From: Synechocystis sp. LKSZ1
GTDB lineage: Bacteria; Cyanobacteriota; Cyanobacteriia; Cyanobacteriales; Microcystaceae
NCBI RefSeq assembly: GCF_040436315.1
Contig: NZ_AP031572.1
Location: 2,294,001 to 2,358,000, forward strand
Direction: 5' to 3'
Length of the DNA stretch: 64,000 nucleotides
The translations under genes were made by a program, and so were the position numbers. Shown piece by piece: positions 42,328 through 64,000 of this stretch (position 1 is the first letter of the stretch; every line of letters begins with the position of its first letter). The notes below the pieces were generated by a model. It saw only the letters and a list, made by a program, of their open reading frames with translations, did no database searches and was not told the origin of the DNA.

Positions 42328-42693
42328 ATGGGCACGGCACTGGTCATCGACGATTCCTCTACGGAGCGCTCGATCATCACAGAAATTTGTAAAAGCCTAG
42401 GCATTAACGTTACGACAGCCGTCAGTGGTGAAGAGGCCTTGGAAAAATTGGCCCAAAGCATCCCCGATGTGATTGTCTTAGACATTGTTCTGCCGGGACG
42501 CAGTGGCTTTGAAATTTGTCGGGAATTAAAAGACCGGGAACAGACTAAACAGATTCCCATTATTCTCTGTTCCACCAAGGCTACCGATATGGATAAATTT
42601 TGGGGCAAGCGCCAGGGGGCGGATGCCTACATTACCAAGCCCATTGATCAAGCGGAATTTACGGCAACGTTAAAGCAATTCCTGACGGTGTAG
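42328..42693 (+). CDS. pixH: CheY-like response regulator, PixH/PilH type
   Basis: A 121-residue single receiver domain: acidic residues in VIDDSSTERS, phosphoacceptor Asp52 in IVLDIVLPGRSGFEICRE, and Lys in AYITKPIDQAEF. It follows pixG by 86 bases and has a GAGG stretch eight bases before its ATG. Its expected role is a phosphate sink or output regulator of the CheA-like kinase PixL, controlling pilus motors during phototaxis. Confidence 0.88.
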   Translation: MGTALVIDDSSTERSIITEICKSLGINVTTAVSGEEALEKLAQSIPDVIVLDIVLPGRSGFEICRELKDREQTKQIPIILCSTKATDMDKFWGKRQGADAYITKPIDQAEFTATLKQFLTV

Positions 42694-42726
42694 TTTTCTA
42701 TTTTTCTTTGTTGCGTCGTTATTGCC

Positions 42727-43296
42727 ATGGCCTCCGATTTTTCCACTGCTTCCCGTACCCTTGCCCCGACCCAGGGCCAACTCCAACAATTTCTGCATTT
42801 TTCCCTAGAGCCCCATACCCAGGCCATGCTCCCTATTGCTCAACTGAGTGAGGTGCTCAATGTCCCCCTGGGCCAGATTGTCCCCATTCCCCACCTGCCC
42901 CCTTGGGTGCTGGGGGTTTATAACTGGCGCGGAGAGATTCTCTGGATGGTGGACTTGGGACAACTGCTGGGGCTGACCCCCTGGCATCGTCAATCTGTAG
43001 CTCGTTCTCACTATGCGGTCATTGTCCTTAACGGGAGCGGTGACTACGACCCCAAGCGGCCCCTGCGTCGTCAGAATCGCCAAGACCGCAACCAGATGCT
43101 CGGCTTAGTCGTCGGTGAAGTCAGGGATATTGAATGGTGTAATCCTGACCAAATTCAATCGGCCCCAACGGCCAGTATTAGTGCGGCCCTGGTGCCCTAT
43201 CTGCGGGGTTTTTGGGTGAGTGAACCGGGGGAAATGTTTGTGGTGCTCAATGGCCAGGCGGTCATTTCCCGTCTTAACCAGGCATCCATTACTTAA
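42727..43296 (+). CDS. pixI: CheW-like adaptor protein, PixI/PilI type
   Basis: A 189-residue CheW-domain protein that couples receptor and kinase. The core is visible as [44 protein letters not shown], with the PWVLG-x-NWRGEI segment diagnostic of CheW in cyanobacterial systems. A loop (about residues 98-120, [14 protein letters not shown]) is long. It starts 33 bases after pixH and is followed 62 bases later by the receptor gene, in the fixed operon order. Confidence 0.9.
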
Positions 43297-43358
43297 GCAT
43301 TAAATTTTACTCATTTTTTTATTATTTATCTTCATCCCTAGGCCTATTTTCAACGACT

Positions 43359-46178
43359 ATGACTCAGACTTCCTCTCAATTCTCCCCCTCCGATGTCCCC
43401 GATGATGAGCCATTGTTTGCAGGAGACACTCTCCTGGGTAATCTGGATCCCGCTCTTCCTTCCCTAGAGGAAGCGGCCGTAACGGAAGATCCCTTGACCT
43501 TGGTGGATACTGACCCGCCTGAACCCGAAGCTATAACCGCCACCAATAATGCTGGAGACGGCCCAGCGACGCCGACTCCCGCCTGGGAGTCACCTAACCT
43601 CCCCCAGATTGAACTGCCCAGTCCCCCCACTTTGCCAGCGTTACCCCAGCTCACGCTACCCAGCCCGGCCCGGCCGCCCTTGCCGCAACCATCCCCTAGC
43701 AGTCCTCCCCCCGCATCTCCTCCCAATTGGGGCCAACGTTTCTCCTTTACCCAAAAAGCTGTCCTTGTGGCCCTGCTCATGGGCCTGGGGCCAGCGGCAA
43801 TCATCGGTGGTATTAATAATCAGGCCACTCAACAACTACCCAACTCACCAGCCCCTCAACAAATTGAAGCAATTAAGCAATCAAATCAATCGACCCTCTG
43901 GCTGGGTCTACTCCTCACTGCCGGTCTAGTGGGTGGTCTAGCCTACGTTTTGGCCCATCAGAGCAGTCAAGCCTACCAGGCCCTTGTCAAAAGAGTGACC
44001 GCCCTGGGGGCCACTAACCTGGACACGCCCCTCAACCTCACCAGTCAGGATGAAATAGCCGTTGTTGATGCCACCGTGACGGCCCTGACCGAACAAATTC
44101 AGGTTCTGCGCCAGGGCCAATTGGAATCCCTCCGGCAGGCCCAAGTACTGAAGGATATTACCCTCAAGGTGTCAGCGGCCTTAAATACCACGGCGGTTTT
44201 TGAAGTAGCAGTGCAGGAAATTCGCCAGGCCATGAAGGCTGACCGGGTAATTGTCTACCGTTTTGATGACACCTGGGCTGGTACCGTCATTGCCGAATCC
44301 GTCGAGCCGGGGTATCCCGTGGCCTTGGGGGCCCAGATTGCCGATCCCTGTTTTGCCCAGAATTACGTCGATAAGTATAGCCAGGGCCGCATTCAAGCCA
44401 CCCCCAACATTTTTGAAGCCGGTCTGACCCCCTGTCACCTGGGCCAACTGAAACCCTTTGAGGTCAAGGCAAACCTAGTCGCGCCGATTATTACCGAGGG
44501 CAAACTTCTTGGCCTGTTGATCGCCCACCAATGTGCTGGCCCCCGCCACTGGACGCCCGGGGAAATTGAGTTATTTGGCCAACTCACCATTCAAGTGGGC
44601 CTGGCCCTGGATCGAGCCGATCTTCTGCAACAACAACAGGAAGCCAACCGACAAGCGGAACTACTGAAGGATTTGACCCTGAAGATCTCGGCGGCCCTTA
44701 GTACCGAAGATGTGATGCAGGTGAGTGTCGCGGAGATCCGACAGGCCCTGAAAGCGGATCGGGTGATTGTCTATCGTTTTGATGAACGTTGGGCCGGCAC
44801 CGTCGTTGCGGAATCCGTCGAGCCGGGCTATCCCGTGGCCCTGGGGGCCGAAATTATGGATCCCTGCTTTGCCCAAAATTACGTTGATAAGTACCGTCAG
44901 GGCCGGATTCAGGCTACTCCCGATATTACTAAGGCCGGTTTGACCCCCTGCCATCTGGGCCAACTCAAACCCTTTGAGGTCAAAGCTAACCTAGTAGCGC
45001 CGATTATCTTTAAGGGGTCATTGATGGGATTATTAATTGCCCACCAATGCGCTGGCCCTCGGGATTGGAGCCAGAATGACATTTATCTGTTTGGCCAGTT
45101 GACAGTGCAAATGGGCCTGGCCCTAGAGCGGGCGGATCTATTGGTACAGCAACGCTTAGCCGAGATTGAGCAACGTCAAGTGCGGGAACAACTGCAAAAA
45201 CGGGCCCTGGAACTGTTGATGGAAGTCGATCCGGTCAGTCGCGGCGACCTCACCATCCGAGCCCACGTCACGGAGGATGAAATTGGTACCATTGCCGACT
45301 CCTACAATGCCACCATCGAAAACCTGCGACGCATTGTGACCCAGGTGCAAAAAGCCGCTACCCAGTTTGCCTCCACCACCGACACCAACGAAGCGGCGGT
45401 GCGCCAACTCTCTGGGGAGGCCCTGCGTCAGGCCCAGAACGTGGCCGTGGCCCTGGAAAGTTTACAGGCCATGACCCGCTCGATTCAGGAAGTCGCTGAA
45501 AATGCGGCCATGGCCGAAGCGGCAGTCCAACAGGCCACCCGCACTGTAGACCAGGGGGAAGATGCCATGAACCGTACCGTAGACGGGATTGTGGCCATCC
45601 GGGAAACCGTAGCGGCAACGGCCAAAAAAGTGAAGCGGCTGGGGGAATCGACTCAGAAAATTTCTAAGGTGGTGAATCTGATTAGCAGTTTTGCCGACCA
45701 AACCAACCTGTTGGCCTTAAATGCAGCCATTGAGGCGGCCCACGCTGGGGAAGAGGGCCGGGGCTTTGCGGTGGTTGCCGATGAAGTCCGTTCCCTGGCT
45801 CGTCAATCAGCGGAAGCAACGGCGGAAATTTCCGAGTTGGTGGCCAGCATTCAGGCCGAAACCAATGAAGTGGTGATTGCCATGGAGGCCGGTACCGAGC
45901 AGGTGGTGGTAGGAACCAAGCTGGTGGATGAAACCCGTAAGAGCCTCAACCAGATTACCGCCGCCAGTGCCCAGATTAGTGAGCTGGTGGAAGCCATTAC
46001 CTCAGCGGCCATTGAGCAGTCCCAGACCAGTCAGTCTGTGACCCAGACCATGGCCCAGGTGGCCAAACTCGCCGACCAGACCTCCTCGGAGGCAGCCAAT
46101 GTTTCCAATACCTTTAAAGATCTTCTGGCAGTGGCCCAATCCCTCCAGGATAGTGTGCGTCAATTTAAGGTGGAATAA
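43359..46178 (+). CDS. pixJ: Membrane MCP with two cyanobacteriochrome-type GAF domains, PixJ type
   Basis: A 939-residue methyl-accepting chemotaxis protein. Order: proline-rich cytoplasmic part (1-130); two membrane helices (about 135-155, 174-197); HAMP (about 200-255); GAF1 (about 265-425); GAF2 (about 440-595); a second HAMP-like linker (about 610-670); signalling domain (about 675-939) with the tip [26 protein letters not shown]. Both GAF domains have the DXCF motif (DPCF, Cys331 and Cys503) and the CH motif (PCHLGQL, Cys359 and Cys531). The two cysteines of each pair are 28 residues apart, as in the blue/green-sensing TePixJ (Cys494 and Cys522). This predicts two bilin-binding photosensors. 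The domains are clearly tandem duplicates. Confidence 0.88.
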
Positions 46179-46214
46179 CCCGCCCGTTGTTTACCCCTAC
46201 CGATTGCTAACCCC

Positions 46215-46853
46215 ATGGTCTCTTCTAGCCTCACGTCTCCTGAACTGTCTCTCCTGACCCAGCAGGCCCTCCAGCAAACCTGTCAAAATCTGACGGAGCA
46301 AGTTGTTCGCTTGCAAAAACAAGAACAAAGCCTGCAACAGGCCATCACCCAGGGCACAAACCAGGGCCTGGAACATACGGCGGGGATGCAGACCCTGCGG
46401 GAAACCCTCGCCAACACCAGCGGCCAGATTCAACGGTTGGACCAATCCACCCAGGCCGTGGCCCAGGCCATTAACCTGATCCGACAATTCGCGGCCCAGA
46501 CCCATCTCTTGGCCCTCAAGGCCTCCATCGAGGCGGCCCGGGCCGGAGAAGAGGGCCGGGGCTTTGCTGTGATTGCTGAGGAAGTAAGGGGCTTGGCTGC
46601 TCAATCCGCCGAGGCCACAGCGGCCATTGAAACCCTGGTGGTAGCCATTCAATCGGAGGCCAGGGAGGTCAGCGATACCCTCCAACGGGGCAAACAACAA
46701 TTGGAACGGGAAAACCAGACCGTGGATACCATCCAAGACCACTGGCACCAGGCTGCCCAGTCCCAGCAGGCCTTGACCCTTGCCATCCAGTCCATTGCCC
46801 AAACGAGCTATCAACAACAGCAACTGCTGGCCCAACGACCGCAAGCCCTATGA
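46215..46853 (+). CDS. Small soluble MCP signalling-domain protein (PixJ2 position)
   Basis: A 212-residue protein that is almost only a chemoreceptor signalling hairpin. It is helical throughout, with the tip [43 protein letters not shown] in the centre (about residues 95-138). There is no membrane helix, HAMP or ligand domain. Compared with the tip of PixJ the sequence is shifted at normally fixed sites ([10 protein letters not shown] becomes [10 protein letters not shown]), so its affinity for CheA/CheW may differ. It lies between pixJ and pixL, the place of the second MCP gene (pixJ2) in the known pix operon, and its stop overlaps the pixL start (ATGA), pointing to coupled translation. 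Confidence 0.8.
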
Positions 46854-49800
46854 TTAACGCTGACATTCGTGACCACGCCTACCAATTCTTCATCGAAGAG
46901 GCCCCGGAACTGCTCCAGGTGATTGAACAGGAGTTATTAACTCTGCGCCAGGAACGCACACCAGCTAAAATCCATGCCCTGATGCGGGCGGCCCATTCCC
47001 TCAAGGGGGGAGCGGCCAGTGTGGGTTTGCCAGCCATTAAAACTCTGGCCCATCGTCTGGAGGATATTTTCAAGGCCCTCTACAGCGAAGCGGTGGTCAT
47101 TGATGAGGATATGGAAAGCCTCCTGCTCCAGGCCTTTGATGGTCTGAAAAATCCCCTAATGGCAGAAATTGAACAGGGCCAGTTTGACAGTGACCAGGCC
47201 CTGGCCACGGGACTACCCGTGATCGAAGCCATTGAATTTCTACTGGGGGATCACCTGGCCGCTGGGGAACAGTTTTTACCCAGTTCGGCAGATCTCGGAG
47301 TGGATATTGTTTCCTCCCTGTTTGAAGTGGATATTCAACAGGGCCTGAACCAGATTCAAGGGGCCTTGGAAACGGAGGACGCTGAGGTAGTGCGGGAAAC
47401 CCTAAGCGCCCAAACCGAGGTCTTTGCGGGTCTAGCGGAACTCCTAAACCTACCGGGGTTCCAGGAAATTACTACTCTGGTACAAACGGCGCTCGTTAAT
47501 CAACCAGAGGCCATTTTGGCCCTGGCCCCCGTGGCCCTCCGAGATTGGCGGCAGAGTTGCCAACAAGTATTAGAACAAGGGGATCGTCAGCAGGGAGGCT
47601 ATCCTTCAGCGGAACTCCAGGCCCTTGCGGGTGCATCTGGTTCCTTCACAACAGCCTCCGAAATCCCAGTGGAAACGCTAGAAACCCTTTGGGGCAATGC
47701 CGGAGATCTGACCCCAGCAGCGGCCATGGATAACCTTTGGGGTAATGCAGACTTGGGAGCTGAAACCTTCTCCCTGCCAGAACTGGAGCCAGCAGAATTA
47801 GCTTGGCCCGAACTTCCTCCCCTCACCGGAGAGCTGAGCCAAGAAGCAGAAACAGTCACGTCCGAAATGGTCAATACCGACGAGCCAGCCTATCAATTTT
47901 TTATTGAAGAGGCCCCGGAACTGCTCCAGATGATTGAAGAGGGCCTATTGACTCTCCGCCAAGACCGCAGTGCGGTCAAGGTTCATAGCATTATGCGGGC
48001 GGCCCATTCCCTCAAGGGGGGAGCGGCCAGCGTGGGTCTGACGGCCATTAAGACCATTGCCCATCGTCTAGAGGATATTTTTAAGGCCCTGCACAGCGAG
48101 ACTCTCAGCTTTGATGAAACCCTAGAATCCTTGCTCCTAGCCGGCTACGACTGTCTGAAAAATCCCCTCGAAGCCCAAATCCATACCGGGTATTACGATC
48201 CCCAACAGGCCCTGGCCGCCGTCCAGCCGGTGCTAGAGGCCCTGGAATTTCAGTTAGGCGATGCCCTCCAGGCCGGAGAGCAGTTTCTGCCCAGTTCTGC
48301 GGATCTGGGGGTGGATATTGTTGCCAACCTGTTCGACTTGGATATTCGCCAGGGCCTGCAACAACTGCGGGAGGCCTTGGACAGTGATGATACCGAAATC
48401 GTCCGAGACAGCCTCATCGCACAAACAGAAGTCTTTTTAGGCCTGGCGGAAATTTTGAATCTCCCCGGTTTTAAGGCCATTGGGGAAGCGGTACAAAAGG
48501 CCTTAGAAAATAGTCCTGACCAGGCCCTGGCCATTGCCCAACAGGCCGTTGTGGATTGGACGAATAGTTGCGACCAAGTGCTCCAGCAGGGGGATCGACA
48601 ACAGGGCGGCAGTCCTTCAACCTTCTTGCTAAGCTTTGGCGAAAAAGCGGTGGTTGAGGTCAAAGAGGCCCTCCAAGCCAGCCCGGCCTCACGCCTATCT
48701 ATCAGTGATTTATTCTTTGGGGATGATGAAGAGGAAGCAGAGATTCCCTCAACGGCAGAAACTGAGGCCCCCAGTCGGGAAGAAGAAATACAAGCCCCTC
48801 TCGGCCTGGTAATGGAGCCGGAGATTCTAGCCGAAACAGAGGTACCCGTCGAAGCGACGCTAGCTGAAACCATCCTCGAGGGCCTACCCCTGGCCCCTTC
48901 CCTCGAAGACGTTTTTGGCGGACTGGTGGCCGAAGAAACTCTGTTGGATGCCGGGATTTTTGCCGACTACGATGCCACCCCCAGCGTTGACGACACGGAA
49001 ATTGACCAAATGGTACAGTCCGTGGCTCAGGTATTTGAACAATTGCCGGCCCTGCCGGAAACACCACCCCTGACGGCCCCAGAACTGTCAACGGCCATTA
49101 GTCCGGCCCCAACACCAACCCCCCAACGGGCCGAAACGCCACCAACACCGACAGCGGCGCCCCTCTCCATTCGGGTTGATTTCCAGCGCCTGGAACGCAT
49201 GAATAACTGGGTGGGGGAACTGGCTATTAACCGCAATAGCCTTTCCCTACAAAATCAACAACTACAAGGCTCAGTTCGTTCTCTGTTAACACGCTTTAGC
49301 CGTTTCCAGGGCCTGACAGTCAAACTACGGGAACTCGCCGACCAATTGGTGACAGCCCCCGGCGGCGATAAGCTATTCCGGCCCCAGGGATCCACTGCCT
49401 GGGTAAGCAATGCCTTCGATACGTTGGAAATGGATTCCTACAGTGCCCTCTCGGGACAATTGCAGGAAATTTTAGAGGAAATGATGCAGTTGGAAGAGGC
49501 TGTTGATGACATTGTGCTCTTCGCCCGAGCCTCTAACCAAAGCCTCGATGCCCAAAAGCAAATGCTTTTCTCCCTACGGGATGAACTGATGTGGGCCCGC
49601 ATGTTGCCTCTGGGAGAAGTCCTCAACCGTTTTCCGAGAGTTCTGCGGGATCTTTCAACCCAGTACCATAAGCCGGTTCAACTCAAGCTCTATGGAACCT
49701 CTGTTTTGGTTGATCGCCTGGCCATTGAAAAACTCTACGACCCCCTCCTGCACCTACTGCGTAATGCCTTTGACCATGGCATTGAATCCCCCGAAGTACG

Positions 49801-51103
49801 CCGGGCCCAGGGCAAACCGGAAAGCGGCACCATTGAGATCCAGGCCTATCACCAGGGCAACCAGACCATTATTGAAATTCGGGATGATGGCGGGGGCCTG
49901 AATGCAGAGAAAATTGCCCAGCGGGGCATTGAGAAAGGCCTGATCACGGAAGCCCAGGCCAAAACGATGACGCCAGAGCAGATCTATAACTTGATCTTCG
50001 AGCCGGACTTTTCCACCGCCAGCCAAGTCAGTGAACTATCGGGGCGGGGCGTCGGCCTAGATGTGGTGCGTCAACAGATTGCCGCTCTTAAAGGAACTAT
50101 TGTTCTTTCCTCTCGCCCCGGCCGGGGTACGACTTTTTCCCTGCGCCTACCCCTCACCCTGACCATTGCCAAGCTTCTGGTCTGCACCATTAGCCAAGAC
50201 GACCAACGGACAGCGACAGCCATTGCCATTCCCTCCGATAGCGTAGCTGAATTGCTAGTTCCCCTCCCCAATCAACTGAAACTCTCGGGCAATCAACGGT
50301 TTCTCTTCTGGCAGGGCCAAATGATTCCCATCTATCCCCTAGCCTCCCTGATTCCCTACAACTGTCCCCTAGGAGACCGCCAATTGAGCAAGGTCTTGAG
50401 TGCTGTTCCTCAACCGGAAGACTGGAACTTACCGCTGATTCTGCTCCGCCAAGGAGACCACTACTACGCCCTCGAAGTCACTCGCCTGATCACCGAGCAA
50501 GAGTTGGTGATTAAACCCTTTGCCCCCATTCTGCGGGCTCCCGATTACTTATATGGCTGTACGATTCTGGGGGATGGTACTCTAATTCCGGTGATCAACG
50601 GCGGCCTCCTGTTGGAATGGTATTGGCAACGGGGCGAGGACAGCATGGGTCAATTCCTCACCGAAGGGCCGGTTCTGGCCGAAGAAACTCTAGCGGAAGT
50701 CGCAACCGGCTTGGCCCAAACCCAAACCATTTTGGTGGTGGATGATTCCGCCGCGATGCGCCGGACCCTGGCCTTTAGCCTCGAAAAATCGGGCTATCGG
50801 GTCCTCCAGGCCAAGGATGGCCGCGAGGCCCTGGATATTCTGGCCCAGACCCCCGGTATTCAACTGGTGATCTGTGACATAGAAATGCCTAATCTCAACG
50901 GCTTTGAGTTTCTGGGGCAACGTCGTCGTAATCCCGCTATGGCGAGTATTCCCGTGGCCATGTTGACTTCGCGGGGCAGTGATAAACATCGCCAACTAGC
51001 CACCCACCTCGGGGCCAATGCCTACTTCACCAAGCCCTACATCGAACAGCAATTCCTGACGGCCATCAAAGAACTGCTGGCCACCCCGGCCCTGTCTGTC
51101 TAA
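46850..51103 (+). CDS. pixL: CheA-type hybrid histidine kinase, PixL/PilL type
   Basis: A 1417-residue hybrid kinase. Two Hpt modules are present, each with [15 protein letters not shown]; the phosphorylatable histidines are His49 and His386. Each module is followed by a conserved stretch with [15 protein letters not shown], so about 250 residues are duplicated with a period of 337. A low-complexity linker (about 600-770) follows, then the dimerisation and ATPase domains (about 775-1100, N box [11 protein letters not shown] with Asn972, G boxes DDGGGLN and GRGVGLDVV), a CheW-like domain (about 1105-1260) and a receiver (about 1292-1412) with [10 protein letters not shown], Asp1343 and TKPYIEQ. 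It is the kinase of the phototaxis pathway; it starts inside the previous stop (4-base overlap). Confidence 0.92.
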
Positions 51104-51866: not shown

Positions 51867-54800
51867 ATGACTGCATCGACCCTGCTCGTTCTAGATGCCC
51901 AAATTTCTCATGCAGAATCCCTGCTCGCGGCGGTTTTACCATCGATTCCTGTCGTGATTCTGTCCCCATCTAGAGATGGCATTACTCAAATCAGCCAGGC
52001 CCTCCAGGCCTATCCCGGTATTCGCTCCTTACACCTCGTTTCCCACGGAGCACCGGGATGTCTTTATTTGGGTAACAGCAGTCTGTCCCTGGAAAATTTG
52101 ACCCAGCAGGGGGCTGAATTACGGCGCTGGTTTCAGGGAATTCCTCAGCCTCAAATATTCCTCTATGGCTGTCAGGTCGCGGCGGGGGATGCCGGGGCCG
52201 AATTTATTGAAAAATTGCGTATTTTAACTCAGGCCGCTGTGGCCGCATCAACAAGCCTAACCGGGGCCGCATCCCTGGGAGGCAACTGGAATTTAGAACT
52301 TCAATTAGGTGATATTGCCATGGAATCAGTTTTTTCTGCTAATGAGCTAAATAATTATGCCGGAGTTTTGGATGCGCCGGGTTCGTTATTTATCTATGCG
52401 GAATCCTCGGTAGCCTATACAGCCCTGCTTGACCCTCTGCAATTATTAGTACAAGAAAGACTGACGGACTGGTTTGGCCAGGAAGATTACCTAACTCAAT
52501 TGGCCATTCCCTTTAGTGCCACAGCAAGCAGTGAGAGTTGGACAGCCAACGCAGAGGCCCTGCGCCAGTTGATCCTGGGCGGCGACTATTCCATTCGGTT
52601 AGAAGTTCGCTCCGGTGAAGAATTAGAAGGGGCCTTTGGGGCCTATAGTGCGACGGGAACCACTAATCAGCCGACGATTTATTTAAACGGGAATTGGTTA
52701 ACGACAGCAAGTACCGACCAAATACAAGCGGTTTTATTGGAAGAGCTAGGCCACAGTTTTGATCAGATTCTGAATAATGGGGCCGATAGTCCGGGCGACG
52801 AAGGAGAAATTTTTGCCAATTTGGTATTGAATACTGGCGCAAGTACAGCTAGTCTTTTACAGCAAAATGATCATCAAATCGTGACCATCGGTGGTCAACA
52901 GGTGAAGATCGAGGCTGCTGCTTGGGGGCCGTCCAATGTGGCCCAGACGTTTTATCTGCCCATGGCAGAGGACCAAGTTCGTACTTCTCTTTTCAAAATC
53001 AGCAGTTCGGTGGGGAACGACATTCGCACAGTCATTTCCCTGGTATCCACCAGTAATGGTACGGTCATTGTCTATGACCATTGGGAAGATGGTTATGAGG
53101 CCGATATTAATAATCCCACCCAAGCCACAACACAAATTTGGGGGGATGGCAATTTAAGTAATGGTGTTGCCCCTGGTGATGCTGATGACGTGCTGGCATC
53201 CGGGCAAGTCATTACCCTCATTAATACCATTAATATTGGCAATCTTGCCGCGGTGGATTTCGATGGCCGTGATCGCATTGGAGCCACCAAGGCTATTGCA
53301 GTCACTAAAGCAGGATGGGCAACTAATCCTGGGACGGTCTTAGCCGGTGCAATCAATATCTATGATGTGGGCAATTCTGGGAAGGAATATATTATTCCCA
53401 TCGGGCAGAATACCGTCACGAACAATGCCAATCCAGGTGATACGGCTAACCGTTTATTTGAATATACCTCCCTTCATATCATCGCCTACGAAAATGGCAC
53501 GACGGTCAATATCGACCTCAATGGTGATGGTGATACCAGTGATGCGAATGAAGTTTCCGTTACCCTTGCCCAAGGACAAAGTTATCTGGTTAATGGCAAT
53601 GTGTTAGCGGGAACTAAAGTCACCTCTAATAAGGCCATCGGGGTTTACAGCATTGCAGGGGATATTGGCTCTAGCTATGAAAACCGTTGGTTAGCTATTA
53701 CTCCCACCGAGCAGTGGTTCAGCAGCTACTATGCCCCCGTTGCGACAACTCGTGCTGATGCACCGGCCCACGTGTTTCTTTACAACCCCGGCAATACAGC
53801 CATCACCGTCACCTACGATACCCAAACCACGCAAGGAGCCACCATTTCGGTTCCGGCTAAGGGGAATGCCTATGTAGTGATGCCAGCTTCGGCGGCCCAT
53901 TTCTATACCGTTGGTGGTGAAAAGTTTTTTGCTATTAGTACTATTGATTCGGATGCGACCTCCAACCAGTCCTACGACTGGAGCTATAGTCTGGTTCCTG
54001 AAAGTTATCTAACGGATAAGTTTGTGGTGGCCTGGGGCCCTGGCTATAACAATACCGATGGTGCAATTCCTACCGCTAAAAATGGGAGTCCGGTGTGGGT
54101 AACGGCCCCTAAAGATACCACCATTTATATTGACTATAACGGCGATGGAACCGTTGATGCGACCTATAACCTCAAGGCCCTGGAGTCCTATCGGATTCGA
54201 GACAATGCAGATAAAGACCAAAGTGGGTTAACTGTCTATACTACAGATGGCACTTTGATCACGGCGGCCTGGGGGGAGGATCCTTCCGTTGCGGATGCGG
54301 GCAATCCTTATTTGGATATGGGAACTACCGTCCTTCCCTTCCCCGATTATGTCTTCAAAAAAGCCTCTAAGGAAGCAAGTACTGCTGTCTATGGAGCCGG
54401 CGTTAGTGACAATGACAACCTAGTAGAATTAACGGAGCAGATTGAATATACCGTCAGTGTCACTAATCGTGCAGTCATTGATCTATTCAATATCAACATC
54501 AAAGACTCTATTGCGCCTTCAGATAGTGCAACCTATGTGCCAAATAGCACCTCGTTCACCATCTACGATCCCAATGGTAATATTGTTGTTTCTGTTTTAG
54601 ATTTAGACGGTGCTAGTAATAATTTCCCGTTATCAGGGGCCGGTTATACGATTACCGATGCGGATCCCAACACTCCAGGTATTCAAGGCTTGCAACGGGG
54701 CTATCAAGCGGTTATTAAATATCGGGTTCAAGTCCGGGCGGATATTAATCAAAACCTCAGTGATGCGGATTATGTCATCACCAATAATGCTCAATTAACG

Positions 54801-57800
54801 GGAAATCCCGCTGATGGAGATCCCATCACCAAGACTGTTGAGAATGAAACTCAAGTCATTGTCAATAGCTATGACGGTGAGGTCGCCTTTTATAAGTCCG
54901 ATTTCTCTGCCATTGCGACATCCTTCCAGGAAGGCGATACGATCGGTATTCAAGTCACCGATCGTGACCCAAATAAAACGAGCACAACCGCTGAAACCTT
55001 GACAGTGACGGTGACTAATATCACCACCGGGGAAACAGAGGTAGTAACCTTAACGGAAACAGGCGTTAATACAGGAATTTTTCGGGGTACCCTAGCAACT
55101 TCTATTACCAGTTCCAATAATGGGAACAATAGCGGTACGCTTTACATGGTGCAGGCGGATTCCCTAAAAGTAGAATACACTGATCCAGTTTTTGGAACGG
55201 CGTTTGATAATCCAACTAAACCGGGGATTCCCCAGAGTTCTAACAATACGGCAAACCCATTATTACCATCTCCAGGAAATAATAGTGACGCTGATACCAG
55301 TACGGCTACGGGGAAACCGAATACAGCCAATGCAACGGTTGCTGTTCCCAGCAAAACGAAAATTTTATATCTATCGGCAGATGCGGCCGATAATGACGGA
55401 ACCGGTGATTTAGACCGGATTAATCCAGCCGATCCTGATAGTAACCCAAGCACTTCAGACCCGGATACCTCGACTTCCAGTACGACTAACATTACTCCTG
55501 CTATCGCTGCTACAGGGGGCGGAACGGGGACTTATCGTGATAATTTTTCAACTGCTGCCTATAACAATAGTGATGGCACGGAAAGTTGGACAACCTCGTG
55601 GACAGAAGTTGGCACTAACACCGACACGAATGCTGGATCAGGGATCATCAAAATCAATACATCGGCTCCGGCTGGCTTGGCTTTTGAGCGAAGTGGGAGT
55701 ACTAACCCTGTAGATGCTGATGTTCAACGCTCTTTGAATCTAAGCTCAGCAGATACATCACAGGCTATTACATTAAGCTTTACTGTTACAACACTAGATA
55801 GTCTTGGTTATAGTGGTATTAATAATGATAATAGTACTGAAAGTGTAACACTAAGAATTTCCACTGATGGTGGAACGACGTTTAATGCGATCACCACTGG
55901 AAGTTTTACAAAGACCTCAGGTTCAACCACCTCTGCTGTTCATAGTAACGGTGTATTTAAGGGGGACAGTAATGGTACGGGAAGTTATACAGTTGATATC
56001 AAAAGCTTGATTGCTAGTGCAACCAATAAAAACAATATCATTGTCCGATTTGATGGTACTAACTTAAGTAGAACTAACGCAAGTGATCCACTTTTTGCTG
56101 TTGATGATTTCCAAATTTCTTTTACGAAAACAGGTACCCCTGCAACGCCTGCTGTTCCTGCGACTTTCACCCAAGCTATCAACATGGCAGACGCTTTTGC
56201 CATGCCAACTGGTGGACAAATTTCTGTTGTTACCTACGTCAGCAATGTAACAGGAAATCCTAATGGTTCTGCCAATATCACTGCCAATCTTACCTATGGT
56301 GCTGGCAATACTGTCATTGCCAATTTGAGTAACCCTGTTTATAACAGTGGTGCCGGTACTCTTACTTGGACAGGAACATTAGCCAGTGCAGTTAATATAC
56401 CTAGTGGAAATGCTGTTAAGTTAGTTATTAACAATAACCAATCTGGAGTCAGTTTCAAAGTTGATTATGACAGTAACACGAAACCCTCTCGCATTGAGCT
56501 ACCGACTACAACAGTTATTGACATTAAAGACGTAGACAATAATGCCGGTAATGGCATCCAGGAAATTGGTTTTTATGACAATTCTTTAGCCAATGGCGGT
56601 AGTCTCATCACCGCTGGCACCGTTAATGCGGGTCAAATTGTTTACCTGCGCGTCAGAGTTAGTGATCCCTTTGGTGACTACGACATCACCGGTCTGACCG
56701 TAACTATTGATGGGCCAGGTGCAACTGGCGATCAAACGGTTACTTTAACCAATGCCAACGTCATCAATGCATCTGGAGATGGGGTTGCCATCAAAACCTA
56801 CGAGTACGCCTGGCAGACTGTCTTTAATACCGGGATCTACGACATCAAGGTTGTGGCTAAAGAAGGTTCTGAAGGAATTACCACTAGTGCAACCTCCAGC
56901 CTTATTGTCACATCTACAGATACAGGCACTCCCTCTGTTACTACCTTTATCACGGCCCTCGGGGGAATCGATGCAGGCCCTAATTATGCCCAAGGAGCCA
57001 ATGCCTTTTTGCGGGTCACTGACCTAGATGAAAATTCCAATCCCTCTGTTCAGGAAACAGTTACGGCCATTGTTAATGGCACATCTTTTACGCTTACTGA
57101 AACAGGGCCAAATACAGGGATTTTTGAAGCGGCCCTGACTGGCCCAGGTTTTACGAATTTACCCCAAGGTGCAGTCCTTAGCGCCAGCTATGTTGACAAT
57201 GATGATGCCACCGACACCAGTACCGATGTCATCAGTGTTCCGGTTCCGGGCAATCAGGCGCCCGATGCCGTCAATGACAGTTTCAGTACCAATGAAGATA
57301 CCCAATCTGCAGTCCTCAACCTGTTAGCTAATGATACGGATGTTGATGGTAATCCCCTAAGCATCACCAATATCGCTGGGACAGTCTTGACACCGGGGAC
57401 AGCCCAGAACATCGCGGTGACCAATGGCACCGTGAATGTGAGTGCCGGTGGTCAAATCACCTTCACCCCAGCCGCCAACTACAACGGTCCCGTCAGCTTC
57501 GACTACACCATCAGTGATGGCAACGGAGGAACCGATACCGCCACCGTCAATGGCACCATCAATGCCGTTAATGATGCGCCCGATGCCGTCAATGACAGTT
57601 TCAGTACCAATGAAGATACCCAATCTGCAGTCCTCAACCTGTTAGCTAATGATACGGATGTTGATGGTAATCCCCTAAGCATCACCAATATCGCTGGGAC
57701 AGTCTTGACACCGGGGACAGCCCAGAACATCGCGGTGACCAATGGCACCGTGAATGTGAGTGCCGGTGGTCAAATCACCTTCACCCCAGCCGCCAACTAC

Positions 57801-60800
57801 AACGGTCCCGTCAGCTTCGACTACACCATCAGCGATGGCAACGGAGGAACCGATACCGCCACCGTCAATGGCACCATCAATGCCGTTAATGATGCGCCCG
57901 ATGCCGTCAATGACAGTTTCAGTACCAATGAAGATACCCAATCTGCAGTCCTCAACCTGTTAGCTAATGATACGGATGTTGATGGTAATCCCCTAAGCAT
58001 CACCAATATCGCTGGGACAGCCTTGACACCGGGGACAGCCCAGAACATCGCGGTGACCAATGGCACCGTGAATGTGAGTGCCGGTGGTCAAATCACCTTC
58101 ACCCCAGCCGCCAACTACAACGGTCCCGTCAGCTTCGACTACACCATCAGCGATGGCAACGGAGGAACCGATACCGCCACCGTCAATGGCACCATCAATG
58201 CCGTTAATGATGCGCCCGATGCCGTCAATGACAGTTTCAGTACCAATGAAGATACCCAATCTGCAGTCCTCAACCTGTTAGCTAATGATACGGATGTTGA
58301 TGGTAATCCCCTAAGCATCACCAATATCGCTGGGACAGTCTTGACACCGGGGACAGCCCAGAACATCGCGGTGACCAATGGCACCGTGAATGTGAGTGCC
58401 GGTGGTCAAATCACCTTCACCCCAGCCGCCAACTACAACGGTCCCGTCAGCTTCGACTACACCATCAGCGATGGCAACGGAGGAACCGATACCGCCACCG
58501 TCAATGGCACCATCAATGCCGTTAATGATGCGCCCGATGCCGTCAATGACAGTTTCAGTACCAATGAAGATACCCAATCTGCAGTCCTCAACCTGTTAGC
58601 TAATGATACGGATGTTGATGGTAATCCCCTAAGCATCACCAATATCGCTGGGACAGTCTTGACACCGGGGACAGCCCAGAACATCGCGGTGACCAATGGC
58701 ACCGTGAATGTGAGTGCCGGTGGTCAAATCACCTTCACCCCAGCCGCCAACTACAACGGTCCCGTCAGCTTCGACTACACCATCAGCGATGGCAACGGAG
58801 GAACCGATACCGCCACCGTCAATGGCACCATCAATGCCGTTAATGATGCGCCCGATGCCGTCAATGACAGTTTCAGTACCAATGAAGATACCCAATCTGC
58901 AGTCCTCAACCTGTTAGCTAATGATACGGATGTTGATGGTAATCCCCTAAGCATCACCAATATCGCTGGGACAGTCTTGACACCGGGGACAGCCCAGAAC
59001 ATCGCGGTGACCAATGGCACCGTGAATGTGAGTGCCGGTGGTCAAATCACCTTCACCCCAGCCGCCAACTACAACGGTCCCGTCAGCTTCGACTACACCA
59101 TCAGCGATGGCAACGGAGGAACCGATACCGCCACCGTCAATGGCACCATCAATGCCGTTAATGATGCGCCCGATGCCGTCAATGACAGTTTCAGTACCAA
59201 TGAAGATACCCAATCTGCAGTCCTCAACCTGTTAGCTAATGATACGGATGTTGATGGTAATCCCCTAAGCATCACCAATATCGCTGGGACAGTCTTGACA
59301 CCGGGGACAGCCCAGAACATCGCGGTGACCAATGGCACCGTGAATGTGAGTGCCGGTGGTCAAATCACCTTCACCCCAGCCGCCAACTACAACGGTCCCG
59401 TCAGCTTCGACTACACCATCAGCGATGGCAACGGAGGAACCGATACCGCCACCGTCAATGGCACCATCAATGCCGTTAATGATGCGCCCGATGCCGTCAA
59501 TGACAGTTTCAGTACCAATGAAGATACCCAATCTGCAGTCCTCAACCTGTTAGCTAATGATACGGATGTTGATGGTAATCCCCTAAGCATCACCAATATC
59601 GCTGGGACAGCCTTGACACCGGGGACAGCCCAGAACATCGCGGTGACCAATGGCACCGTGAATGTGAGTGCCGGTGGTCAAATCACCTTCACCCCAGCCG
59701 CCAACTACAACGGTCCCGTCAGCTTCGACTACACCATCAGCGATGGCAACGGAGGAACCGATACCGCCACCGTCAATGGCACCATCAATGCCGTTAATGA
59801 TGCGCCCGATGCCGTCAATGACAGTTTCAGTACCAATGAAGATACCCAATCTGCAGTCCTCAACCTGTTAGCTAATGATACGGATGTTGATGGTAATCCC
59901 CTAAGCATCACCAATATCGCTGGGACAGTCTTGACACCGGGGACAGCCCAGAACATCGCGGTGACCAATGGCACCGTGAATGTGAGTGCCGGTGGTCAAA
60001 TCACCTTCACCCCAGCCGCCAACTACAACGGTCCCGTCAGCTTCGACTACACCATCAGCGATGGCAACGGAGGAACCGATACCGCCACCGTCAATGGCAC
60101 CATCAATGCCGTTAATGATGCGCCCGATGCCGTCAATGACAGTTTCAGTACCAATGAAGATACCCAATCTGCAGTCCTCAACCTGTTAGCTAATGATACG
60201 GATGTTGATGGTAATCCCCTAAGCATCACCAATATCGCTGGGACAGTCTTGACACCGGGGACAGCCCAGAACATCGCGGTGACCAATGGCACCGTGAATG
60301 TGAGTGCCGGTGGTCAAATCACCTTCACCCCAGCCGCCAACTACAACGGTCCCGTCAGCTTCGACTACACCATCAGCGATGGCAACGGAGGAACCGATAC
60401 CGCCACCGTCAATGGCACCATCAATGCCGTTAATGATGCGCCCGATGCCGTCAATGACAGTTTCAGTACCAATGAAGATACCCAATCTGCAGTCCTCAAC
60501 CTGTTAGCTAATGATACGGATGTTGATGGTAATCCCCTAAGCATCACCAATATCGCTGGGACAGTCTTGACACCGGGGACAGCCCAGAACATCGCGGTGA
60601 CCAATGGCACCGTGAATGTGAGTGCCGGTGGTCAAATCACCTTCACCCCAGCCGCCAACTACAACGGTCCCGTCAGCTTTGACTACACCATCAGCGATGG
60701 CAACGGAGGAACCGATACCGCCACCGTCAATGGCACCATCAATGCCGTTAATGATGCGCCCGATGCCGTCAATGACAGTTTCAGTACCAATGAAGATACC

Positions 60801-63800
60801 CAATCTGCAGTCCTCAACCTGTTAGCTAATGATACGGATGTTGATGGTAATCCCCTAAGCATCACCAATATCGCTGGGACAGCCTTGACACCGGGGACAG
60901 CCCAGAACATCGCGGTGACCAATGGCACCGTGAATGTGAGTGCCGGTGGTCAAATCACCTTCACCCCAGCCGCCAACTACAACGGTCCCGTCAGCTTCGA
61001 CTACACCATCAGCGATGGCAACGGAGGAACCGATACCGCCACCGTCAATGGCACCATCAATGCCGTTAATGATGCGCCCGATGCCGTCAATGACAGTTTC
61101 AGTACCAATGAAGATACCCAATCTGCAGTCCTCAACCTGTTAGCTAATGATACGGATGTTGATGGTAATCCCCTAAGCATCACCAATATCGCTGGGACAG
61201 CCTTGACACCGGGGACAGCCCAGAACATCGCGGTGACCAATGGCACCGTGAATGTGAGTGCCGGTGGTCAAATCACCTTCACCCCAGCCGCCAACTACAA
61301 CGGTCCCGTCAGCTTCGACTACACCATCAGCGATGGCAACGGAGGAACCGATACCGCCACCGTCAATGGCACCATCAATGCCGTTAATGATGCGCCCGAT
61401 GCCGTCAATGACAGTTTCAGTACCAATGAAGATACCCAATCTGCAGTCCTCAACCTGTTAGCTAATGATACGGATGTTGATGGTAATCCCCTAAGCATCA
61501 CCAATATCGCTGGGACAGTCTTGACACCGGGGACAGCCCAGAACATCGCGGTGACCAATGGCACCGTGAATGTGAGTGCCGGTGGTCAAATCACCTTCAC
61601 CCCAGCCGCCAACTACAACGGTCCCGTCAGCTTCGACTACACCATCAGCGATGGCAACGGAGGAACCGATACCGCCACCGTCAATGGCACCATCAATGCC
61701 GTTAATGATGCGCCCGATGCCGTCAATGACAGTTTCAGTACCAATGAAGATACCCAATCTGCAGTCCTCAACCTGTTAGCTAATGATACGGATGTTGATG
61801 GTAATCCCCTAAGCATCACCAATATCGCTGGGACAGTCTTGACACCGGGGACAGCCCAGAACATCGCGGTGACCAATGGCACCGTGAATGTGAGTGCCGG
61901 TGGTCAAATCACCTTCACCCCAGCCGCCAACTACAACGGTCCCGTCAGCTTTGACTACACCATCAGCGATGGCAACGGAGGAACCGATACCGCCACCGTC
62001 AATGGCACCATCAATGCCGTTAATGATGCGCCTGTCTTAGATTTAGATGCAAATAATAGCAGTGGGGCCAGCGGGGCCGATTATGTAACGGCCTTCACTC
62101 CTGGTGTCCCAGTCGCTATAGGAGATTCAGATCTCACCATCACAGATGTTGATAGCTCCAATATTGTCAGTGCAACGATTACCTTAACCAACGCCCAAGC
62201 TGGGGATGTCCTCAACACCCCCACTATTGCTGGGTTAAGCTTTAACACCGACACATCAGTAGCGGGTCAAATAAAGGTCACTGTAACGGGTAGCAAAACC
62301 CTAGACGAATACGAAGCGGCCATCAAAGCTATTACCTTCAGCAATAGCAGTAACAACTCTGATACTACGGCTCGAACAATTACAGTTGTTGTCAATGATG
62401 GCGATCAAGATAGCAATATAGCTACCACGACTATCAGCACGTTAAATATCAATAGCCTTACTGTTAATGAAGGCTCCCCCTATGCCGTATTTACGGTAAC
62501 CGGTAGCAGTGGACAATCCGTCTTTCTCAGCACCACTGGAGGAACCGCCACCAAAGAAACGGATGGGATACTCGGTAATGGTGAAGACTTTGGCAATGGA
62601 CTAGAGTATTTTGATGGTACGTCCTGGGTTGCTTATACGGGGACTGCAGTAACCTTCCCTTCGGGAGGAACGACTCTTCTAGTCCGTACTCCAATTACGA
62701 ATGACTCGCCATTTGAGGGCCCGGAAACCTTTACCTTATCTGCCATAAGTAGTACGGGAGGATCTAGTGCAACCGGAACCGGAACTATTGTTGATGATGG
62801 TACCGGTACTATCTTCAACGACAACGGCACTCCAAATAATACAGCGCCTAAAGATGATGACCGACCGAGCTTCAGCATCAATGATGTCACGGTCAACGAA
62901 GCGGCCGGAACAGCAACCTTTACGGTCACCAAGACTGGTACCACTACCGAGAGTGCAACGGTCAATTTTGGTACATCCAATGGCAGTGCTACCTCAGGTC
63001 AAGACTACACAACCAACAGCGGCACCCTGACCTTTGCGGCCAATGAAACCAGTAAAACGGTCACGGTCAATATCACCAACGATGGCATCTTTGAAGGCAG
63101 TGAAACCTTTAATGTCAATTTGTCCAATGCCACTAATGCCACCATTGCTGATGGGACGGGGGTAGGAACCATCAAGGATGATGGAACCGTGAGCGGGCCA
63201 GGCCCAATTCCCGCTGATGATGACCGACCGAGCTTCAGCATCAATGATGTCACGGTCAACGAAGCGGCCGGAACGGCAACCTTTACGGTCACCAAGACTG
63301 GTACCACTACCCAGAGTGCAACGGTCAATTTTGGTACATCCAATGGCAGTGCTACCTCAGGTCAAGACTACACAACCAACAGCGGCACCCTGACCTTTGC
63401 GGCCAATGAAACCAGTAAAACGGTCACGGTCAATATCACCAACGATGGCATCTTTGAAGGCAGTGAAACCTTTAATGTCAATCTGTCCAATGCCACTAAT
63501 GCCACCATTGCCGATGGGACGGGGGTAGGAACCATCAAGGATGATGGAACCGTGACCGGGCCAGGCTCAATTCCCGCTGATGATGACCGACCGAGCTTCA
63601 GCATCAATGATGTCACGGTCAACGAAGCGGCCGGAACGGCAACCTTTACGGTCACCAAGACTGGTACCACTACCCAGAGTGCAACGGTCAATTTTGGTAC
63701 ATCCAATGGTAGTGCCACCTCAGGTCAAGACTACACGGGAACCACTGGCACCCTGACCTTTGCGGCTAATGAAACCAGTAAAACGGTCACGGTCAATATC

Positions 63801-64000
63801 ACTAACGACGGCATCTTTGAAGGCAGTGAAACCTTTAATGTCAATCTGTCCAATGCTACTAATGCCACCATTGCCGATGGGACGGGGGTAGGAACCATCA
63901 AGGATGATGGAACCGTGAGCGGGCCAGGCCCAATTCCCGCTGATGATGACCGACCGAGCTTCAGCATCAATGATGTCACGGTCAACGAAGCGGCTGGAAC
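51867..64000 (+). CDS. Giant DUF4347/cadherin-like/Calx-beta repeat protein (3' end outside window)
   Basis: I read one frame open from ATG 51867 (MTASTLLVLDAQISHAESLL) to the window end, more than 4044 codons. Residues about 5-170 are a DUF4347 domain (IRSLHLVSHGAPGCLYLG, FLYGCQVAAGDAG). Residues 285-300 hold VLLEELGHSFDQ, a decayed metalloprotease-like motif (EELGH at 292-296). About 363-826 resemble IgGFc-binding-like regions (WFSSYYAPVATTR, YIDYNGDGTVDATYNL). About 832-1000 are DUF11-like. 1000-1797 hold beta-rich segments with TGVNTGIFRGTL-type motifs. Residues 1798-3387 are 15 near-identical 106-residue repeats, and Calx-beta repeats start at about 3665. There is no N-terminal signal peptide; export by a type I system with a C-terminal signal is the family expectation. 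Probably an adhesin or cell-surface protein. Confidence 0.88.
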   Translation, partial: MTASTLLVLDAQISHAESLLAAVLPSIPVVILSPSRDGITQISQALQAYPGIRSLHLVSHGAPGCLYLGNSSLSLENLTQQGAELRRWFQGIPQPQIFLYGCQVAAGDAGAEFIEKLRILTQAAVAASTSLTGAASLGGNWNLELQLGDIAMESVFSANELNNYAGVLDAPGSLFIYAESSVAYTALLDPLQLLVQERLTDWFGQEDYLTQLAIPFSATASSESWTANAEALRQLILGGDYSIRLEVRSGEELEGAFGAYSATGTTNQPTIYLNGNWLTTASTDQIQAVLLEELGHSFDQILNNGADSPGDEGEIFANLVLNTGASTASLLQQNDHQIVTIGGQQVKIEAAAWGPSNVAQTFYLPMAEDQVRTSLFKISSSVGNDIRTVISLVSTSNGTVIVYDHWEDGYEADINNPTQATTQIWGDGNLSNGVAPGDADDVLASGQVITLINTINIGNLAAVDFDGRDRIGATKAIAVTKAGWATNPGTVLAGAINIYDVGNSGKEYIIPIGQNTVTNNANPGDTANRLFEYTSLHIIAYENGTTVNIDLNGDGDTSDANEVSVTLAQGQSYLVNGNVLAGTKVTSNKAIGVYSIAGDIGSSYENRWLAITPTEQWFSSYYAPVATTRADAPAHVFLYNPGNTAITVTYDTQTTQGATISVPAKGNAYVVMPASAAHFYTVGGEKFFAISTIDSDATSNQSYDWSYSLVPESYLTDKFVVAWGPGYNNTDGAIPTAKNGSPVWVTAPKDTTIYIDYNGDGTVDATYNLKALESYRIRDNADKDQSGLTVYTTDGTLITAAWGEDPSVADAGNPYLDMGTTVLPFPDYVFKKASKEASTAVYGAGVSDNDNLVELTEQIEYTVSVTNRAVIDLFNINIKDSIAPSDSATYVPNSTSFTIYDPNGNIVVSVLDLDGASNNFPLSGAGYTITDADPNTPGIQGLQRGYQAVIKYRVQVRADINQNLSDADYVITNNAQLTGNPADGDPITKTVENETQVIVNSYDGEVAFYKSDFSAIATSFQEGDTIGIQVTDRDPNKTSTTAETLTVTVTNITTGETEVVTLTETGVNTGIFRGTLATSITSSNNGNNSGTLYMVQADSLKVEYTDPVFGTAFDNPTKPGIPQSSNNTANPLLPSPGNNSDADTSTATGKPNTANATVAVPSKTKILYLSADAADNDGTGDLDRINPADPDSNPSTSDPDTSTSSTTNITPAIAATGGGTGTYRDNFSTAAYNNSDGTESWTTSWTEVGTNTDTNAGSGIIKINTSAPAGLAFERSGSTNPVDADVQRSLNLSSADTSQAITLSFTVTTLDSLGYSGINNDNSTESVTLRISTDGGTTFNAITTGSFTKTSGSTTSAVHSNGVFKGDSNGTGSYTVDIKSLIASATNKNNIIVRFDGTNLSRTNASDPLFAVDDFQISFTKTGTPATPAVPATFTQAINMADAFAMPTGGQISVVTYVSNVTGNPNGSANITANLTYGAGNTVIANLSNPVYNSGAGTLTWTGTLASAVNIPSGNAVKLVINNNQSGVSFKVDYDSNTKPSRIELPTTTVIDIKDVDNNAGNGIQEIGFYDNSLANGGSLITAGTVNAGQIVYLRVRVSDPFGDYDITGLTVTIDGPGATGDQTVTLTNANVINASGDGVAIKTYEYAWQTVFNTGIYDIKVVAKEGSEGITTSATSSLIVTSTDTGTPSVTTFITALGGIDAGPNYAQGANAFLRVTDLDENSNPSVQETVTAIVNGTSFTLTETGPNTGIFEAALTGPGFTNLPQGAVLSASYVDNDDATDTSTDVISVPVPGNQAPDAVNDSFSTNEDTQSAVLNLLANDTDVDGNPLSITNIAGTVLTPGTAQNIAVTNGTVNVSAGGQITFTPAANYNGPVSFDYTISDGNGGTDTATVNGTINAVNDAPDAVNDSFSTNEDTQSAVLNLLANDTDVDGNPLSITNIAGTVLTPGTAQNIAVTNGTVNVSAGGQITFTPAANYNGPVSFDYTISDGNGGTDTATVNGTINAVNDAPDAVNDSFSTNEDTQSAVLNLLANDTDVDGNPLSITNIAGTALTPGTAQNIAVTNGTVNVSAGGQITFTPAANYNGPVSFDYTISDGNGGTDTATVNGTINAVNDAPDAVNDSFSTNEDTQSAVLNLLANDTDVDGNPLSITNIAGTVLTPGTAQNIAVTNGTVNVSAGGQITFTPAANYNGPVSFDYTISDGNGGTDTATVNGTINAVNDAPDAVNDSFSTNEDTQSAVLNLLANDTDVDGNPLSITNIAGTVLTPGTAQNIAVTNGTVNVSAGGQITFTPAANYNGPVSFDYTISDGNGGTDTATVNGTINAVNDAPDAVNDSFSTNEDTQSAVLNLLANDTDVDGNPLSITNIAGTVLTPGTAQNIAVTNGTVNVSAGGQITFTPAANYNGPVSFDYTISDGNGGTDTATVNGTINAVNDAPDAVNDSFSTNEDTQSAVLNLLANDTDVDGNPLSITNIAGTVLTPGTAQNIAVTNGTVNVSAGGQITFTPAANYNGPVSFDYTISDGNGGTDTATVNGTINAVNDAPDAVNDSFSTNEDTQSAVLNLLANDTDVDGNPLSITNIAGTALTPGTAQNIAVTNGTVNVSAGGQITFTPAANYNGPVSFDYTISDGNGGTDTATVNGTINAVNDAPDAVNDSFSTNEDTQSAVLNLLANDTDVDGNPLSITNIAGTVLTPGTAQNIAVTNGTVNVSAGGQITFTPAANYNGPVSFDYTISDGNGGTDTATVNGTINAVNDAPDAVNDSFSTNEDTQSAVLNLLANDTDVDGNPLSITNIAGTVLTPGTAQNIAVTNGTVNVSAGGQITFTPAANYNGPVSFDYTISDGNGGTDTATVNGTINAVNDAPDAVNDSFSTNEDTQSAVLNLLANDTDVDGNPLSITNIAGTVLTPGTAQNIAVTNGTVNVSAGGQITFTPAANYNGPVSFDYTISDGNGGTDTATVNGTINAVNDAPDAVNDSFSTNEDTQSAVLNLLANDTDVDGNPLSITNIAGTALTPGTAQNIAVTNGTVNVSAGGQITFTPAANYNGPVSFDYTISDGNGGTDTATVNGTINAVNDAPDAVNDSFSTNEDTQSAVLNLLANDTDVDGNPLSITNIAGTALTPGTAQNIAVTNGTVNVSAGGQITFTPAANYNGPVSFDYTISDGNGGTDTATVNGTINAVNDAPDAVNDSFSTNEDTQSAVLNLLANDTDVDGNPLSITNIAGTVLTPGTAQNIAVTNGTVNVSAGGQITFTPAANYNGPVSFDYTISDGNGGTDTATVNGTINAVNDAPDAVNDSFSTNEDTQSAVLNLLANDTDVDGNPLSITNIAGTVLTPGTAQNIAVTNGTVNVSAGGQITFTPAANYNGPVSFDYTISDGNGGTDTATVNGTINAVNDAPVLDLDANNSSGASGADYVTAFTPGVPVAIGDSDLTITDVDSSNIVSATITLTNAQAGDVLNTPTIAGLSFNTDTSVAGQIKVTVTGSKTLDEYEAAIKAITFSNSSNNSDTTARTITVVVNDGDQDSNIATTTISTLNINSLTVNEGSPYAVFTVTGSSGQSVFLSTTGGTATKETDGILGNGEDFGNGLEYFDGTSWVAYTGTAVTFPSGGTTLLVRTPITNDSPFEGPETFTLSAISSTGGSSATGTGTIVDDGTGTIFNDNGTPNNTAPKDDDRPSFSINDVTVNEAAGTATFTVTKTGTTTESATVNFGTSNGSATSGQDYTTNSGTLTFAANETSKTVTVNITNDGIFEGSETFNVNLSNATNATIADGTGVGTIKDDGTVSGPGPIPADDDRPSFSINDVTVNEAAGTATFTVTKTGTTTQSATVNFGTSNGSATSGQDYTTNSGTLTFAANETSKTVTVNITNDGIFEGSETFNVNLSNATNATIADGTGVGTIKDDGTVTGPGSIPADDDRPSFSINDVTVNEAAGTATFTVTKTGTTTQSATVNFGTSNGSATSGQDYTGTTGTLTFAANETSKTVTVNITNDGIFEGSETFNVNLSNATNATIADGTGVGTIKDDGTVSGPGPIPADDDRPSFSINDVTVNEAAG
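57258..62027 (+). repeat. 15 tandem copies of a 318-bp in-frame repeat
   Basis: Exactly 15 units of 318 bp (106 codons), each starting GCGCCCGATGCCGTCAATGA. The encoded unit begins APDAVNDSFSTNEDTQSAVL, then NLLANDTDVDGNPLSI, and ends GTDTATVNGTINAVND, the pattern of cadherin-like/tandem-95 (Big_9/VCBS-related) domains, with Asp/Asn residues suited to calcium binding. Variation that I can see is tiny: V or A at codon 43 (GTC/GCC), one AGT/AGC in unit 1 and TTC/TTT at codon 81 in units 11 and 15. This points to recent expansion or constant gene conversion. Confidence 0.95.
62859..64000 (+). repeat. 363-bp Calx-beta tandem repeats (three whole, fourth cut by window end)
   Basis: Units start at 62859, 63222, 63585 and 63948, each 363 bp (121 codons). 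The unit begins DRPSFSINDVTVNEAAGTAT, contains SGQDYTTNSGTLTFAANETS and ends near GTGVGTIKDDGTVSGPG, a textbook Calx-beta domain, a calcium-binding beta sandwich. Units differ at several sites (for example EGSETF kept, TTNS versus TGTT, SGPGP versus TGPGS), so this array is somewhat older or less homogenised than the 318-bp one. It probably continues beyond the window. Confidence 0.92.

Follow-up and report, generated by a model that had tools for sequence, protein, structure and literature searches.

The giant gene of Synechocystis sp. LKSZ1 analyzed here probably encodes a surface protein, the stalk of which contains one cadherin-like domain amplified to 15 copies, and these copies are likely to have been kept alike by homologous recombination between the units. 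In the sister species, the conserved ends of the gene enclose a repeat region built from other modules. If this explanation is correct, a single cadherin-like domain would have undergone tandem amplification up to the 15 copies, inter-unit recombination (unequal crossing over and/or gene conversion) would keep them alike, and unequal exchange would add or remove whole in-frame units. Selection would then act on the length or reach of the protein rather than on the chemistry of one repeat, and the number of units would be expected to vary between strains as well.

The giant gene and its 318-bp array

The giant gene occupies positions 51867–64000 on the forward strand of the window (the whole stretch of 64,000 nucleotides analyzed) and continues for 7.1 kb past its end, up to position 71126, the open frame having been followed through the adjoining stretches of the chromosome. 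The genome consists of one contig of 3.67 Mb. The encoded protein comprises 6,419 aa (660 kDa, pI 4.05). Its N-terminus carries a DUF4347 domain (aa 6–168; positions 51882–52370, forward strand; PF14252, 181 bits as compared with a cut-off of 24.6), followed by a block extending to about aa 352 and by a head region of about 1,445 aa (52923–57257, forward strand), in which no Pfam or NCBIfam family was detected at an E-value of 0.01, the only exception being a weak Calx-like match towards its end (aa 1674–1758). The 318-bp array (57258–62027, forward strand) comes next, and is separated by an inter-array segment (62028–62852, forward strand) from a second array composed of 363-bp Calx-beta units, which was delineated with Tandem Repeats Finder, Pfam and alignments (62853–64000, forward strand, the five units extending to 64667 outside the window). 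Eight matches were found in the Calx-beta series, five of which are the near-identical 363-bp units; with a mean identity of 94.7%, this array is less uniform than the 318-bp array. Downstream of this series, there are single Ig-like modules A, B, B2, C, D, and E (aa 4682–5316), and the 3' part of the gene also encodes one more Calx-beta match and then five DUF4114 matches up to the C-terminus. All the array periods recorded (318, 363, 378, 405, 411, and 315) are multiples of three. Three promoter-like sites are present upstream of the gene, as compared with a mean of 1.1 in shuffled sequences.

According to the original prediction, positions 57258–62027 are occupied by 15 head-to-tail units of 318 bp with about three variable sites, silent ones included. 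The units proved to be placed correctly to the base, based on Tandem Repeats Finder (57258–62032, period 318, 15.0 copies, 99% matches, 0% indels) and on the alignment of all the units which the prediction had called for. The 15 units, as counted in a single assembly, each correspond to one cadherin-like/Big_9 domain, are in frame with the giant gene and align without any gaps, and exactly three sites vary, two of them silently. The variant at unit position 128 (GTC/GCC, Val/Ala) is carried by units 3, 8, 12, and 13, that at position 243 (TTC/TTT, silent) by units 11 and 15, and that at position 258 (AGC/AGT, silent) by unit 1. Eight of the 15 units are identical to the consensus, 35 of the 105 pairs of units are identical, no pair differs by more than two bases, and the mean pairwise identity is 99.75%. 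Since the flanking 318 bases match the consensus at just 102 positions (before) and 99 positions (after) out of 318, the edges of the array are sharp, and degenerate edge units were excluded.

A two-unit protein scored above the curated cut-offs of PF17963 (164.4 bits, cut-off 23.6), PF17892 (141.6 bits, cut-off 26.5), and NF012211, the tandem-95 repeat domain (141.8 bits, cut-off 90), which places the unit in the Big_9/Cadherin_5/tandem-95 repeat family. In the AlphaFold2 model of two units, based on 25 aligned sequences (the window unit and 24 from head-related loci), each unit is predicted to form a beta-sandwich with eight strands (mean pLDDT 93.7); the domains themselves, rather than their mutual arrangement, are confidently predicted (pTM 0.75). 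Among the best matches obtained with Foldseek in the PDB were 6xi1, which is the tetra-tandem extender from an RTX adhesin of Aeromonas, and cadherin and protocadherin domains in tandem, the TM-scores with tandem structures being about 0.5 or less among the matches shown. A sequence search of solved structures gave one weak match, 36gk_A, an RTX protein (E 0.0038).

The protein was rejected as an RTX adhesin: its 6,419 aa include no GGxGxD motif, and no RTX family was found among the Pfam matches at E 0.01. The four GGGD sites present are all located in the DUF4114 region. No LPxTG motif, no anchor family in the Pfam or NCBIfam output and no secretion signal were identified. The type I HlyD model TIGR01843 gave 11 matches in the genome, none of which exceeded the cut-off; in the control, 13 of 14 genomes had matches, one of which was over the cut-off. 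The model and the fold match with 6xi1 are consistent with the tandem beta-sandwich extenders typical of RTX adhesins, and the identity of 99.75% over 15 units combined with the beta-sandwich model corresponds to the tandem folded domains, near-identical in DNA, which characterize Periscope Proteins. Judging from its domains and their fold, the giant protein is probably secreted and exposed at the surface, where the domains would make up a long extracellular stalk.

Orthologues in the genus and relatives of the head and the unit

The same-genus comparison set consisted of four other genomes, G001–G004, and G002 and G003 have 4 contigs each. An orthologue with matching ends was identified in three of them (G002, G003, and G004), where DUF4347 is present, the N-terminus of about 350 aa shows 59–60% identity and the C-terminus 46–48% identity over about 530 aa. 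G001 is a draft assembly of about 100 contigs, in which DUF4347 had no match and the C-terminal match was weak (7.7e-5). The orthologues of G002 (5,483-aa frame) and G003 (6,427-aa frame) can be read end to end, and their N-terminal 353 aa are 59% and their C-terminal 698 aa 41–43% identical to those of LKSZ1. In G004, which is known only as a draft (about 120 contigs), the N-terminal piece contains three cadherin-like matches, shortly after which it exits contig C28, and the C-terminal piece runs off contig C55 immediately before an E match; this orthologue cut at contig ends would fit the prediction that short-read assemblies collapse the array, if G004 was assembled from such reads, and the giant gene may be found in pieces in draft assemblies.

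The modules were counted by best-match assignment using those of LKSZ1, weak matches expressing family resemblance only. LKSZ1 carries 15 cadherin-like (CAD) and 10 Calx-beta (CALX) modules and one copy each of A, B, B2, C, D, and E. G002 carries four CAD (31–34% identity), 23 D (58–60%), and six E modules (52–54%), plus a single weak match to B2 (25%) and another to B (31%), while G003 carries one CAD (28%), 22 C (58%), 12 A (79%), two B, two D, and five E modules. No counterpart of the LKSZ1 Calx-beta array was found in G002 or G003 at the threshold used. The three species all differ in the module that forms the largest array, and the modules expanded in G002 and G003, including E, which is expanded in both, are present as single copies in LKSZ1; both the type and the number of the repeats differ between species of the genus. 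The order of the modules is broadly collinear, the cadherin-like modules coming first and E last, ahead of the DUF4114 end, with the exception of G003, where C and A are interleaved. In the latter genome (L195, 3510–14032), C and A alternate irregularly in the order CCACACACACACCACCACCACACCCACCCCCACA, which might make it possible to reconstruct the sequence of exchanges.

Directly upstream of the giant gene (41024–51103) lies a chemotaxis-type cluster including a response regulator, CheW, an MCP with GAF domains, a CheA-type hybrid kinase, and a second short MCP-signal ORF (46215–46853); this cluster is possibly a pilus-chemotaxis operon. All four sister genomes contain best matches to the upstream CheA-type gene and to a downstream glycosyltransferase. 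A simple insertion between conserved neighbors was not supported, the flanking homologs being more than 450 kb apart on contig C1 of both G002 and G003. Since a DciA-like homolog adjoins the giant gene in G002, G003, and G004, whereas in LKSZ1 the DciA-like gene (9181–9819) lies beside an ammonium transporter gene at a distance of 42 kb, either the giant gene itself or the region around it was rearranged.

The head has another distribution. A 1,483-aa head query had no match in the four same-genus genomes and matched one of the 37 other genomes searched (37% identity). In the named genome collection, 220 stretches were confirmed, the best 80 of which were kept, and the ten best are 50–64% identical to the head. 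These relatives include Elainella saxicola (57%, full length) and records labeled Cyanobium, Methylovulum, Desulfobulbaceae, Crenothrix, and others, many of which are metagenome-assembled and possibly carry the wrong taxon label; from these matches, a patchy, cross-phylum spread of the head seems likely. At third codon positions, the head (52923–57257) has a lower GC content (GC3 0.41) than either the array (0.60) or the CheA gene (0.59). The fact that the head is AT-richer and has its best relatives outside the genus, some of them labeled proteobacteria, suggests that the giant gene is a mosaic.

In Elainella (L062), the head is followed by one unit match, after which comes a segment with 56% identity (over 169 aa) to the inter-array segment of LKSZ1; the two genes thus appear to share one slot, filled by one unit match in the former case and by 15 units in the latter. 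At loci L062–L078 (17 of the best 80), 0–3 unit matches each were found at E 1e-5, apart from L075, which has eight, these counts being lower bounds limited by the contigs and flanks; the presence of the same 15 units in distant relatives, which according to the original prediction would tell against it, was not observed there. A simple reading is complicated by the longer, diverged series that occur at other loci among the best 80: L114 and L113, for example, have several stretches with 29–38% identity to two units, and in L097 a 321-bp period is repeated 20 times at 75% match, these copies being counted as repeats by their period.

The unit domain itself is common, since it has matches in 255 of 387 other genomes of the order. 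The closest unit outside the LKSZ1 genome shows 63% identity among the matches listed, and the recent import of the unit from one of these genomes is not supported. In 8 of 14 stretches from 14 genomes, which had been chosen for their high-scoring matches, arrays reaching at least 95% match were present, none of them with more than about 7 copies (another of the 17 fetched stretches, L156, was left out, as it is a contig start without a known array). Among the best 80 head loci, one (L092) has a row at 95%, consisting of 2 copies. Uniform arrays are therefore usual for the class, and those of LKSZ1 and its sisters are long and extreme. A second LKSZ1 gene (G000:C1, about 2404021–2405106, frame of 1,418 aa; L157, 2397–3093) also encodes cadherin-like repeats (291 bp, 2.4 copies, 90%).

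Homogenization of the units and alternative explanations

The mean third-position difference between the units is 0.36%, as compared with 32–40% for the orthologous ends of the gene in two sister species, i.e., about 1% of the latter value if equal rates are assumed and saturation is ignored. The original prediction, that the array is either very young or kept uniform by recombination, agrees with this difference and with the distribution of the variants. The LKSZ1 array has seven variant cells of three kinds, two of which are common to non-adjacent units, and three or fewer kinds were obtained in none of 200,000 simulation runs with seven independent mutations. In G002, the D array (23 copies of a 318-bp Ig-type module, 99.4% identity) has seven variants in 34 cells; four variants are shared, all of them transitions, and all four combinations occur in five of the six pairs of informative sites. 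Such a pattern is what exchange within units would produce, the alternative being that these few sites mutated recurrently. Taken together, the shared variants and the four-gamete combinations of G002 point to recombination between units. Since none of the pairs of variable sites in the LKSZ1 array shows all four combinations, continuing exchange in this array is inferred from its shared variants and from the sisters. In G003, module C (22 copies, 99.75%) has two variants and module A (12 copies, 99.70%) three. The third-position identity of module E amounts to 0.93 within species and 0.63 between G002 and G003, which is similar to that of the gene ends between sisters (0.60–0.68); the E copies, alike within and distinct between species, may reflect either concerted evolution or independent amplification.

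That the array might be merely young, having arisen in a single recent burst of duplication without any continuing homogenization, would account for its very low divergence and for the fact that only single-variant haplotypes occur in it. This seems unlikely, however, since variants present in distant units need later exchange or the duplication of blocks, the variants of G002 have been re-sorted within units, and the recurrence of uniform arrays of other modules in other species makes the lucky sampling of a young state less plausible. The number of units might also have been created or altered by the assembly procedure, as misassembly is a known problem with such arrays (PMC6868369; PMC7493085), but we consider this very improbable: the genome is a single contig, the distribution of the variants over units 1, 3, 8, 11, 12, 13, and 15 is irregular, and comparable arrays are present in G002 and G003, with their 4 contigs each.

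Each cadherin-like domain might instead bind a ligand, in which case avidity, and not length, would be selected. The fold relatives of the unit do include cadherins, and some arrayed domains have a ligand function (PMC8201768). It is nonetheless doubtful, somewhat more so than a single burst, whether avidity explains the array, since the sister orthologues contain four or one weakly similar cadherin-like domains and have expanded other modules, and since selection on the protein would not keep silent sites equal. The amplification of one domain, homogenized by recombination, is the explanation we prefer, and the switch of module between sisters makes stalk length a better candidate for the selected property than the chemistry of the repeat. 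We would tentatively go further, without quite considering it probable, and suggest that the gene would be a cassette the ends of which are fixed and the interior of which offers a set of Ig-like modules in roughly collinear order; any of these could be expanded to a series of near-identical copies with the rest remaining single or few, the choice turning over between sister species while length is selected. Since the orthologues keep their ends and the largest array differs in all three, length can be separated here from domain chemistry as the selected trait; if the cassette reading is true, stalk length rather than repeat identity would be under selection, which would provide a natural test of the Periscope idea.

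Comparison with known systems

Region II of MpAFP/MpIBP from Marinomonas primoryensis is composed of about 120 DNA-identical Ig-like repeats of 312 bp, the expansion of which has been proposed to result from unequal recombination (PMC3492233). It resembles the LKSZ1 array in being a long in-frame series of near-identical Ig-like units (312 and 318 bp, respectively) in a giant protein, but has about 120 copies instead of 15 and belongs to an RTX protein, whereas the LKSZ1 protein is devoid of GGxGxD. The extenders of RTX adhesins differ between species; those of AhLap are 94–98% identical, and RtxA has 5–40 repeats, depending on the strain (PMC7493085). These proteins share tandem beta-sandwich extenders with that of LKSZ1, as the fold match with 6xi1 suggests, whereas the latter has no RTX motif and carries DUF4347 and DUF4114 at its two ends. 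In a myxobacterial PilY1, DUF4114 is reported to bind calcium and to influence motility, and sll0723, a DUF4114 gene of Synechocystis, is reported to be regulated with motility (both cited in PMC12058595); by analogy, the C-terminus of the LKSZ1 protein may be a calcium-dependent binding part. Other cadherin-like/Big_9 arrays of the same order belong to the same domain family and are often uniform (at least 95% in the 8 of 14 stretches mentioned above), but have fewer copies, and their units are at best 63% identical to that of LKSZ1 among the matches listed.

Periscope Proteins likewise contain tandem, highly identical folded domains within a large protein, and the greatest variations in length accompany the highest repeat identity (PMC8201768; PMC9704523). 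Since near-identical neighboring domains are thought to be prone to misfolding, their persistence has been explained by selection for length variation (PMC8201768). These proteins are defined by variations in repeat number between strains, whereas LKSZ1 was read as one strain, and the cases described come from other bacteria, cyanobacteria being mentioned in the text of these papers only in the title of one reference. In the Synechocystis orthologues, moreover, the amplified module itself changes between sister species. Among the titles and abstract openings of open-licence papers searched, we recognized none describing this gene or such a switch of module. The giant gene falls in a known class, to which the switch of module between sister species is an added point.
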